Positions 5,888 to 8,902 of a DNA stretch of 64,000 nucleotides are shown here, piece by piece. Positions within the stretch are counted from its first letter, which is position 1; each line of letters begins with the position of its first letter. Source of the DNA: Pseudomonas sp. TH15 (GTDB taxonomy: Bacteria; Pseudomonadota; Gammaproteobacteria; Pseudomonadales; Pseudomonadaceae); the NCBI RefSeq assembly GCF_016651105.1, contig NZ_JAEKEL010000001.1:5012001-5076000 (forward strand), in the 5' to 3' direction. The position numbers were made by a program, and so were the translations under genes. A model generated the notes under the pieces. The model searched no databases, was not told the DNA's origin, and was given only the letters and a program-made list of their open reading frames with translations.

Positions 5888-6760
5888 ATGTCGGTCTCCC
5901 ACGCCCAGCTCAAAGCCTTCCACGCCGTGGCCGTGCACGGCGGCTTCACCAAAGCCGCCGAGCGCCTTTTCCTCACGCAACCGGCGATTTCCGACCAGGT
6001 GCGCAAACTCGAAGAGCGTTTTGGCGTCTTGCTGTTTCACCGCAATAAGCGTTCCGTGCGCCTGACGGACCTCGGCGAGCGTTTGCTGGCGATCACCCAG
6101 CGCCTGTTTGTGATTGAGGCAGAGGCCCAGGAGCTGTTGCAGGAGTCCCAGGCCTTGCAGACTGGCAGCCTGATTCTGGCAGTGGATGCGCCGGTGCACG
6201 TGTTGCCGCAGATCGCGCGGTTCTGCGAACGCTATCCGGGCATCAGCGTGAAAATCGAAACCGGCAACACCGATGAGTCGCTGTTTCGCCTGTTCAACTA
6301 TCAGGCGGATCTGGCGTTGCTGGGGCGCGATGTCAGCGATGAACGCTTGCTGTGCGTGCCACTGCGTAACGATCCGATGGTGGCGTTCGTGTCGCGCAAT
6401 CATCCGTGGGCCGAGCGTGAATCAATCTGCCTGGCGGATCTCGATGACACACCGCTGGTGTTGCGTGAGCACGGTTCGGTGACGCGGCAGACACTGGAAG
6501 AGGAAATGGCCCGGGCGGGGTTTCGCATTCGTCCGGCGATTCAGGTCGAAGGCCGAGAAGCGGCGCGCGAGGCGGTTGTCGTCGGCATTGGCGTCGGGGT
6601 GGTGTCGGCGGCGGAATTTGGTGCGGATTCGCGGGTGTGTGCGTTGCCCATCATCGACTGCACCCGACGGCTGACGGAGACACTGGTGTGTTTGCGTGAG
6701 CAGAGTTCGCGGCGTGTTGTGGCGACGTTTCTCGACATGGTTCGCGAGAGCCTGGCGTAA
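5888..6760 (+). CDS. LysR-family regulator (AEP locus, first paralogue)
   Basis: This is a 290-residue LysR protein. The N-terminal winged helix-turn-helix covers about residues 5-65 (FTKAAERLFLTQPAISDQVRKLE), followed by the linker helix and a periplasmic-binding-protein-like effector domain (PGISVKIETGNTDESL, GIGVGVVSAAEFG). The start has a strong GGAGG five bases upstream. It is divergent from the transporter/FAD oxidoreductase pair, the classic LysR arrangement, so it probably controls that pair. It aligns along its whole length with the LysR protein encoded at 8042-8902 (shared PGI-V, RE-A-EAV, G-GVGVVS segments), suggesting duplication within this phosphonate region. Its ligand is unknown. 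Confidence 0.85.
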   Translation: MSVSHAQLKAFHAVAVHGGFTKAAERLFLTQPAISDQVRKLEERFGVLLFHRNKRSVRLTDLGERLLAITQRLFVIEAEAQELLQESQALQTGSLILAVDAPVHVLPQIARFCERYPGISVKIETGNTDESLFRLFNYQADLALLGRDVSDERLLCVPLRNDPMVAFVSRNHPWAERESICLADLDDTPLVLREHGSVTRQTLEEEMARAGFRIRPAIQVEGREAAREAVVVGIGVGVVSAAEFGADSRVCALPIIDCTRRLTETLVCLREQSSRRVVATFLDMVRESLA

Positions 6761-6772
6761 TCAGGGCCGGCC

Positions 6773-6797
6773 CCTTCGCGAGCAGGCTCGCTCCCAC
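6773..6797 (-). repeat. REP copy (left partner of the REP doublet split by the IS)
   Basis: CTTCGCGAGCAGGCTCGCTC followed by CCACG is a complete REP in inverse orientation. Its partner begins at 6834 (TGTGGGAG) and resumes after the insertion sequence at 8009 (CGAGCCTGCTCGCGA). Confidence 0.85.
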
Positions 6798-6870
6798 GTT
6801 GGAACCGGTTCCTCCAGAAAAAACGCGGTCGAATGTGGGAGATTCTATGTTGGCCAGCAACCCTAAAATC

Positions 6871-7806
6871 TCAGGCTAATCGGTATTCGCCCTGATTTTT
6901 CATCAGGGCGAATGCCACTCGACAGAGCTTGCGAGCAAGGGCCACTAACGCCTGTGTTTTCGAGAAGCCTCTGGCCAGGTAAGACTCGTAAAATGGTTTC
7001 CACTTCGTTGAGCGACTCGCCGCCATCGCGGCGTTGTACGTCAACCGACGGATCTCCGGGTCTCCTTTTTTGGTCAGGAATCTCGGGCCATTCTTTTTAC
7101 CCGAATCGTCCACTGTCAGATCCATACCCAAAAACGCGATGAAGGCATCGCTATTGGCAAAGTCACCGCGCATATAGGTCGTTGCCAACCCAGTCGCCGT
7201 CAGTTCTCCCACGCCTTCGATCGCTTTGCAGCGGTCAATATTGTCTTCAATACCCGCCTCTTTGCTGACCTTGCGCAGCAGTTTCTGAATGACCTGATCG
7301 GATCGTTCGAATGCTTTTTGCTGAGCGGCACGCTCTTTTTTCAGCAAGGGTTCATCGGCCCAGCTCAACATAAGCCCCGTATGGTTCTGAATTAACGTCG
7401 CGCGTCTGTGCAGCAAGCTTTTCAGTACGGTATAGGCCTTGGGTGGCGGGTTCCAAAGCCGCAATTTACATTGCTCATTCGTCAAATAACGCGCGAGCAC
7501 GCGGGCATCGCAGGGATCATTTTTGGCCCGTTGACCGACCCCGCGACGATAATGGCTAACTCGATAGGCATCTACGACATAGACCTGATGCCCCATCGCA
7601 TGAGCCAGATCAACAGTCTCCAAGTGGTAGATGTTGGTGGCTTCAACAGCGATAGCGCTTTGCGCAGGCAAAGTTTTGAGCCAACGTTTGAGGGCGGCTC
7701 GATCATTTTTGACCGACTCAATTGTTTCCAGGTCAGCACGATAGACAACGACTTCGGCCTTGGCGATATCGATACCAACAACCGTCTGCGAAGTAAGGAT
7801 TGTCAT
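6871..7806 (-). CDS. IS110-family transposase (DEDD recombinase)
   Basis: This is an intact 311-residue transposase. The N-terminal RuvC-like DEDD domain shows D13 (GIDIAK), E55 (AVEAT), and D97 and D100 (KNDPCDARVLARY). A coiled-coil linker with many Lys/Gln/Arg residues spans about 150-190. The C-terminal Tnp20 domain has EGVGELTA and DDSGKKNGPRFLTKKGDPEIRR, where S235 is the expected nucleophile. IS110 enzymes recombine DNA guided by an element-encoded bridge RNA. No frameshift or stop interrupts the gene, so it may be active. The last codons form a perfect 12-bp hairpin (6885-6913). Confidence 0.95.
   Translation of the reverse strand: MTILTSQTVVGIDIAKAEVVVYRADLETIESVKNDRAALKRWLKTLPAQSAIAVEATNIYHLETVDLAHAMGHQVYVVDAYRVSHYRRGVGQRAKNDPCDARVLARYLTNEQCKLRLWNPPPKAYTVLKSLLHRRATLIQNHTGLMLSWADEPLLKKERAAQQKAFERSDQVIQKLLRKVSKEAGIEDNIDRCKAIEGVGELTATGLATTYMRGDFANSDAFIAFLGMDLTVDDSGKKNGPRFLTKKGDPEIRRLTYNAAMAASRSTKWKPFYESYLARGFSKTQALVALARKLCRVAFALMKNQGEYRLA
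6885..6913 (-). other. Perfect hairpin at the 3' end of the transposase gene
   Basis: ATTCGCCCTGAT and its exact reverse complement flank a 5-base loop, inside the last codons of the transposase. There is no T-run after it, so it is not a classic terminator. It may stabilise the mRNA end or block read-through. Confidence 0.6.
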
Positions 7807-8006
7807 GACGAATCCTCGGAGCTAGGGTTTAAGAGCTTGTTGGGGTCTACCGTTGCGCTGGCTTGTCTCTATCGTCGGTTTACCGATGAATTCCTTATCG
7901 GCGCTTTGGGTAGAAAGGGCGGGACGAGAAGTCTCCCACGGTCTGTACTGGTCAGAGTCAGAATCGAGTCTGTAGTCCAGCCCACCCCTTCAAGTCTAAA
8001 CATACA
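7807..8006 (-). ncRNA. Candidate IS110 bridge RNA region
   Basis: This is the non-coding stretch between the element end and the transposase start, read on the transposase strand. It can form a target-loop-like structure: a basal stem AAGGGGTGGG (7990-7981) with CCCGCCCTT (7923-7915), an inner stem TCTG-AC with GT-ACAGA, and two unpaired segments facing each other. The 3' segment GTGGGAG (7939-7933) is exactly complementary to CTCCCAC of the REP right half, including the CT core. The 5' segment GACTCGAT (7970-7963) matches GGCTCGCT of the left half at 6 of 8 positions. A second hairpin CCGAT/ATCGG lies further 3'. This is folding by eye; donor guides could not be assigned. Confidence 0.6.
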
Positions 8007-8008
8007 AG

Positions 8009-8026
8009 CGAGCCTGCTCGCGAAAG
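8009..8026 (+). repeat. REP right half displaced by the IS
   Basis: CGAGCCTGCTCGCGAAAG continues the REP that is interrupted after 6841. Joining 6834-6841 to 8009 restores a normal REP. Confidence 0.85.
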
Positions 8027-8041
8027 GAGCGCCACGGTGTT

Positions 8042-8902
8042 TCAGGCTGGGGCCAAGCCGAAGAAGGCCTGAATCAAGCGCAAATCCCGCCGCCGTTCCA
8101 TGCACCCGATCATGTGCCGATTGACCAACCCTTCCCCCAAAATCGGCACCGCCGCCACCCGCGGGTCATGGCTGACTTCCACCGACGACACCACCCCTAC
8201 GCCTAATTCAGCGGCGACAGCCTCGGTCACCGCCTCACGGCTATCCAGTTCCAGCAACACCCGCGGGCTGACCTTCGCCTGACTGCACGCCTCATCAAAT
8301 GTACGCCGAGTAATCGAACTCGGCTCGCGCAACACCATGATCACCTGATCCAACTCTTTGAGTTTCACGTCTGAAGATCGCGTCGCCCACGGGTGCGCCG
8401 CCGGCACCAGCGCGCAAATGCGCGATTCACTCAACGCTTGCAGATGCAGGCCCTTGCGCGGTTCGACCTCGGTCAGCACCGCCACGTCGGCATGCTCGGA
8501 CAACAACGCCGCCAAGGTTTCCTGAGCGTTACCCAAGCGCAAATTCACGGTAATTCCCGGATACCGCGCCCGCAAACTGGCGAGCATCGGCATGACCATG
8601 TGCGGCCCGTCCGCCGCCACTTCCAGACGCCCGGTGAGCAATTGCCGGTTGGCTTCCAGCATCACCTGCGCCTCTTCGGCGAGACCAAACATCGCCCGGG
8701 TGATCGCCGCCAGTTTGGTGCCCTCCTCCGTTAACTCCACCCGCCGGGCGGTACGGCGCAACAGGGTGATCTGGTAGTGCTCCTCCAGCGCCTTGATGTG
8801 CCCGGTGACCGCCGGCTGGCTGATGAACAGTCGCGCGGCGGCCCGGGTAAAGCTGCCCTCGCGGGCCACCGCGTCGAATGCGCGAAGCTGAAACAGATTC
8901 AT
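8042..8902 (-). CDS. LysR-family regulator of phnWX (second paralogue)
   Basis: This is a 286-residue LysR protein with an N-terminal HTH (FTRAAARLFISQPAVTGHIKALE) at about residues 18-42 and an effector domain (RYPGITVNLRLGN, AAELGVGVVSSVEV). It is divergent from phnW with 109 bp between starts, so it most likely activates phnWX in response to AEP or a related ligand, as LysR regulators beside phnWX do in other pseudomonads. It is convergent with, and paralogous to, the LysR gene at 5888; the IS110 element and REP lie between their 3' ends. Confidence 0.85.
   Translation of the reverse strand: MNLFQLRAFDAVAREGSFTRAAARLFISQPAVTGHIKALEEHYQITLLRRTARRVELTEEGTKLAAITRAMFGLAEEAQVMLEANRQLLTGRLEVAADGPHMVMPMLASLRARYPGITVNLRLGNAQETLAALLSEHADVAVLTEVEPRKGLHLQALSESRICALVPAAHPWATRSSDVKLKELDQVIMVLREPSSITRRTFDEACSQAKVSPRVLLELDSREAVTEAVAAELGVGVVSSVEVSHDPRVAAVPILGEGLVNRHMIGCMERRRDLRLIQAFFGLAPA

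Follow-up and report, generated by a model that had tools for sequence, protein, structure and literature searches.

The window, i.e. the whole 64,000-nucleotide stretch of Pseudomonas sp. TH15 DNA analysed here, contains an IS110-family transposon that very probably is of the IS621 type, its insertion into REPs being directed by the guides of a bridge RNA. The element has defined boundaries with a CT core and lies in a REP. Its left end carries a conserved two-loop structure, the guides covary with the targets across relatives, and the choice among host REPs depends on the guide. An earlier note on this DNA had suggested that a bridge RNA, through its guides, programs the element to home to REPs, and the fold, the covariation and the choice of host REPs all support this proposal. 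RNA transcription, donor-loop pairing, a circular intermediate and RNA-directed catalysis are what we infer by homology to IS621. If this is true, circular excision would join the right and left ends as ACATAGAAT-CT-TGTATG and the second loop would hold the CT junction of the circle. The DEDD/Ser recombinase would then exchange strands at the CT, so that the element is inserted into a REP and bordered by CT on each side.

The insertion and its recombinase

The orthologous site in a relative (L174 in genome G011) is empty. It holds an intact REP with a single CT, ...GCAGGCTCG-CT-CCCACATTCG..., and the region between the same LysR-type genes, TTTCGCGAGCAGGCTCG-CT-CCCACATTCGACCG, equals the two flanks of the window joined with one CT. 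The element therefore splits a REP and has a CT on either side (Table 1), and precise insertion with the CT core at both ends is also seen in relatives. A second copy in the same genome is identical. The inverted second REP lies about 36 bp from the interrupted one. The flanking convergent LysR-type regulators (5888–6760 and 8042–8902 of the window) are 39% identical to each other. Elsewhere in the genome (C1:5124005–5124049; L003 1501–1545) a 45-bp remnant consists of a REP left half with the outermost bases of the left end. It represents a third, truncated insertion, in a third REP of the same class. Close relatives of the element were found in the scan of genome contigs only as four copies in Pseudomonas sp. 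TH43, and the plasmid search found none.

The transposase has Pfam matches to PF01548 (DEDD_Tnp_IS110) and PF02371 (Transposase_20) and matches the NCBIfam model "IS110 family RNA-guided transposase". Among solved structures it matches IS621 and ISCro4 (E = 2e-18), and its catalytic D, E, DxxD and Ser-containing motif (ESG/DSG) align with theirs, i.e. both domains are present with the catalytic residues. Membership in the IS1111 group was considered and rejected: only about 30 bp separate the stop codon from the right core, and the long non-coding region lies upstream. The same genome encodes a second, divergent IS110 transposase (L013, C1:1298917–1299840) that is 28% identical.

Table 1. Features of the element and of its target site in window coordinates (LT, left target; RT, right target).
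Feature	Position	Strand	Basis or remark
Complete IS110 element of 1167 bp (CT core counted once)	6842..8008	-	Two identical copies in the genome and the L174 empty site
CT core, left end	8007..8008	-	Set against the L174 empty site
CT core, right end	6840..6841	-	Set against the L174 empty site
LT TTCGCGAGCAGGCTCG, left half of the split REP	8009..8024	-	
RT CCCACA, right part of the split REP	6834..6839	-	
Second REP, in inverted orientation to the split REP	6774..6802	+	REP pair between two convergent LysR-type genes
IS110 transposase/recombinase, 311 aa	6871..7806	-	DEDD RuvC-like domain and Tnp domain with aligned Ser
5' non-coding region, putative bridge RNA (structured part about 7836–7995)	7807..8008	-	Conserved structure
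Closing stem, CUUG 7994–7991/CAAG 7839–7836 and GGGGU 7988–7984/ACCCC 7846–7842	7836..7994	-	21 sequences
Basal stem of target-binding loop, GGGCUGGAC 7983–7975/GUCCCGCCC 7925–7917	7917..7983	-	
Left target guide, AGACUCG and core-facing AU	7963..7971	-	Covaries with LT across relatives
Inner hairpin between the guides, UCUGAC...GUACAGA	7942..7962	-	Compensatory change U-A to C-G in four sequences
Right target guide GUGGGAG (pairs with CTCCCAC)	7933..7939	-	Covariation in two lineages
Putative donor-binding loop, closed by GCGC 7904–7901/GCGC 7858–7855	7855..7904	-	Conserved in every full-length relative
Putative left donor guide AAGGAAUU versus left donor ATAGAATC	7889..7896	-	IS621-like position and order
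Putative right donor guide AU....(R)CAAG versus right donor CTTGTAT	7862..7872	-	Discontiguous as in IS621

The putative bridge RNA

The 202 nt that separate the left end from the start codon are predicted to fold into a target-binding loop and a putative donor-binding loop. An Rfam search of the window returned tRNAs as the sole matches, and the fold was evaluated on an alignment of 21 relatives against slid-alignment and shuffle controls. In this alignment 97.6% of cells are paired, versus 36–43% when it is slid. Four pairs have changed on both sides. Their number is not significant in the shuffle control with the 21 relatives (79/500); the number of cells with a two-sided change and the covariation score are significant (0/500 shuffles each).

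The closing stem is paired in 100% of cells in the 21 sequences and hardly varies. In the basal stem a C-G pair is replaced by U-A (9 versus 12 sequences), and the corresponding stem of the second subfamily, GGAGGAGGAGGG/CCCCUCCUCC, is quite different in sequence and equally paired. In the basal stem, the copies of this genome have one U·C mismatch that is absent from the nearest relatives. A basal stem had been suggested in the earlier note, and it does exist, although with another pairing: the family-wide fold joins GGGC[U]GGAC to GUCCCGCCC, and the preceding GGGGU instead pairs with ACCCC near the 3' end, closing the whole RNA. The inner stem TCTG/CAGA, drawn by eye at the time, is real, four relatives having the compensatory TCCG/CGGA.

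In the putative donor-binding loop the closing pairs are invariant, and two pairs of the inner hairpin show compensatory change. The putative left donor guide and the left donor share five identical bases, with two possible wobbles and one mismatch; the donor is invariant in the family. The right donor guide was placed by eye against the IS621 pairing (PMC11208158), and the base preceding its CAAG is A or G among the relatives listed. The donor guides are consistent with the order in IS621; the donor ends do not vary and are thus outside the reach of covariation. Covariation of the handshake guide is anecdotal, since G080 fits and G139 does not. By-eye inspection of the right–left circle junction found no convincing promoter. 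In one relative (L104 in G091) the non-coding region is only 127 nt long, the target-binding loop being present and the donor-binding loop wholly deleted; this single copy may be a dead or minimal form.

Guides, targets and the choice among host REPs

Along the RNA strand the left guide is followed by the inner hairpin and then by the right guide, which is also the order in IS621 and ISEc21. The guide positions given in the earlier note (GTGGGAG at 7939–7933 and GACTCGAT at 7970–7963, minus strand) are exact. GTGGGAG is fully complementary to CTCCCAC (the CT core with the right half of the REP into which the element has inserted), and the reported agreement between GACTCGAT and GGCTCGCT at 6 of 8 positions holds; when the left guide is started two bases further upstream, the match is 8/10 (CAGACTCGAT versus CAGGCTCGCT). 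More specifically, the guide has A where the REP has G at one position of the arm, and A where the REP has C at the first position of the core. REPs with the perfectly matching arm AGACTCG occur only twice in the genome. The target class of the element has 268 exact copies, and two full insertions and the truncated remnant are found in this class. The "hundreds of safe landing sites" foreseen for the element are there in number, and their safety would follow from REPs being extragenic. In a test set beforehand, all insertions of elements with the same loop were in REPs with a CT core (8/8 in three genomes). All seven CTCCCAC sites used by this guide in three genomes are AGGCTCG, an outcome with a probability of 9e-4 by abundance.

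Among 399 genomes of the genus that were scanned, 50 hold relatives. The 120 loci fetched and the two own copies gave 122 left ends from 45 genomes, with 19 distinct left guides. The left guide agrees with the left target at a mean of 5.61 of 7 bases, as compared to 4.03 ± 0.23 for shuffled guides (0/20,000), and positions −6 to −2 are each significant. The match is confined to one offset: about 5.6–5.8 of 7 at offset 0 and at most 2.9 elsewhere from −12 to +12. For example, guide AAGCCAG goes with target AAGCCAG (G297, G368), UAGUUCG with AAGTTCG (G094), AUGCCCG with ATGCCCG/ACGCCCG (G217) and CAAUUCG with GAATTCG and similar sequences (G018). As an exception, some relatives with the AGGCTCG guide occupy AAGCTCG REPs. 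In the wobble-direction test, the bias that RNA:DNA pairing would be expected to cause, with guide G/target A and guide U/target C more tolerated than their reverse, was not significant (likelihood ratio 0.58). The right guide is GUGGGAG throughout, save GUAGGAG in G094 and G357 and GUGAGAG in G080. CTCCTAC sites are used in 4/4 cases by GUAGGAG elements and in 4/116 by GUGGGAG elements. As GUAGGAG occurs in two lineages, there are at most two independent right-guide changes. The right flank could be read at 120 sites and is CTCCCAC, CTCCTAC or CTCTCAC at every one of them. The target loop guides are therefore complementary to the target and covary with it, i.e. the pairing is conserved across homologues and guide changes track target changes, as the earlier note had expected.

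Several loci deserve a separate remark. The two copies in G080 (L141, L142; right guide AGUGAGAG, sites CTCCCACT) carry an additional stretch of about 250 bp of non-coding DNA on the 3' side, with a palindromic segment in it. A 14-bp direct repeat, CCCACATTTGGTAG, flanks the element at L124 (G186), where the left half is not REP-like; this is possibly a tandem or rearranged insertion. In G018, two copies (L096, L098) lie in a non-standard site that is itself repeated, GCCGCCCGATTCG; it is similar to the AATTCG guide and has no REP hairpin arm.

The recombinase protein might itself recognise REPs, by sequence or hairpin, so that the likeness of the loop would be incidental or come from a captured REP fragment. 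Every insertion is in a REP or REP-like site and the recombinases are related, as this explanation requires, but we consider it very unlikely. Guide distance predicts target distance after transposase distance is allowed for (partial Mantel r = 0.42, 1/5,000 permutations as high). Recombinases that are distant from each other use similar targets when their guides are the same: among transposases more than 35% different, elements with the same guide differ by 1.36 target bases versus 2.13 for those with different guides, and the guides AAGCUCG and AAGCCCG are both shared by the two subfamilies, where each goes with the same preferred targets. Moreover, the similarity covers about 7 bases at one fixed offset and is not of REP length, and the left and right guides are separate and of opposite sense. 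Finally, a REP-like hairpin arm is present on the left at 115 of 122 sites and absent at seven, and four of these seven (L094, L096, L098, L115) match the guide over most core-adjacent bases.

It is extremely unlikely that guide–target agreement reflects shared host ancestry alone, with guide and target each tracking the REP types present in the host. Resident guides do fit the REP repertoire: the best guide-matched class makes up 51% of the host's four counted REP classes versus 30% with permuted guides (p = 0.0003, 26 genomes), a figure that still includes the shared ancestry of hosts and elements. Within genomes, however, the guide-matching class is over-used. Availability of the four common classes was counted in the same genomes, and the test of REP choice was limited to 96 CTCCCAC sites in 29 genomes; CTCCTAC sites, whose availability was uncounted, were excluded, and the right halves of unfetched copies were assumed to be CTCCCAC. 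Guide and insertion site agree at 6.65 of 7 bases, as compared to 6.25 ± 0.06 if choice followed abundance only (0/20,000). Three parameters lowered the negative log-likelihood of the model from 67.8 to 39.4, and the mean z is 3.4 when each genome contributes a single site. Four of five insertions in G125 are in AAGCTCG, which accounts for 106 of 1,075 counted REPs, and all five in G039 are in the guide-matching class (333 of 1,252 REPs). The elements choose guide-matching REP classes beyond host abundance.

The 5' region might instead serve mainly in regulation, as a 5' UTR or as the target of an antisense RNA, and not be a guide. This is suggested by the REP-inserted Pseudomonas IS110 element ISPpu9, whose structured 244-nt 5' UTR has an antisense sRNA, Asr9, that affects tnp translation (PMC8450116). 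It is hardly credible here, as regulation predicts neither guide–target covariation nor choice among host REPs. The two roles are mutually compatible.

Relation to known elements and the evolution of guides

A putative bridge RNA directed to REPs brings the element close to IS621, which targets E. coli REPs in this way (PMC11208160). Both have an IS110 recombinase, a CT core and REP targets, and in both the RNA (putative here) is encoded at the left end, ahead of the gene (PMC11208160, PMC11208158). The target loop has the left guide before the right guide, and the putative donor loop has a discontiguous right donor guide. A mismatch between guide and REP is likewise present, IS621 tolerating a one-position mismatch with its natural REP (PMC11208160, PMC11208158). 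Unlike in IS621, the recombinase is distant from the IS621 protein, the REP and guide sequences differ, and the right target guide has 7 nt instead of 4. In addition, a long-range stem, CUUG..GGGGU/ACCCC..CAAG, closes both loops here and no separate 5' stem-loop was seen.

REP targeting in Pseudomonas has been described for ISPpu9, ISPpu10 and ISPa11 (PMC1525189). ISPpu9 and ISPpu10 of Pseudomonas putida, compared by description, share with our element the IS110 family, a single REP position and a 2-bp direct repeat (PMC1525189, PMC8450116). In ISPpu9 this repeat is AG, i.e. CT on the opposite strand; a bridge RNA or guides are undescribed in these two papers. In ISEc21 and ISMch6 the seekRNA is likewise of IS110 type, with the bottom-strand match 5' of the top-strand match, but the target is another and the target-matching part is carried by a short seekRNA of 74 nt (PMC11187229). 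ISPa11 of P. aeruginosa is also RNA-guided to Pseudomonas REPs. It differs in being of the IS1111 group, with a downstream non-coding region, subterminal inverted repeats and reversed guide order (PMC11187229). Our literature search, made without most subscription papers, preprints and supplements, found no description of guides for this Pseudomonas family. With IS621 on E. coli REPs and ISPpu9 and ISPpu10 in Pseudomonas REPs, the kind of system is already known. What is added is a natural data set of guides and targets with a control for host REPs.

Bridge RNAs are of broad interest as programmable recombination tools. The family offers about 20 natural guide pairs and more than 100 sites in hosts with hundreds of alternative REPs, so that mismatch tolerance and guide evolution become measurable from genomes alone. 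It also gives a ready explanation for the single REP position of some Pseudomonas IS110 elements.

Natural redirection through guide changes is known for ISMch6 (PMC11187229). The present family may retune its guides by point changes toward the common REP class of the host, the evolution of host repeats driving that of the guides, although we regard the case for and against this as evenly balanced. In G291 one copy has the guide AAGCUCG (C1:966100) versus AGGCUCG in three (C1:766585, 1188320 and 1452913), and all four are in AAGCTCG REPs; guide changes therefore arise inside one lineage.
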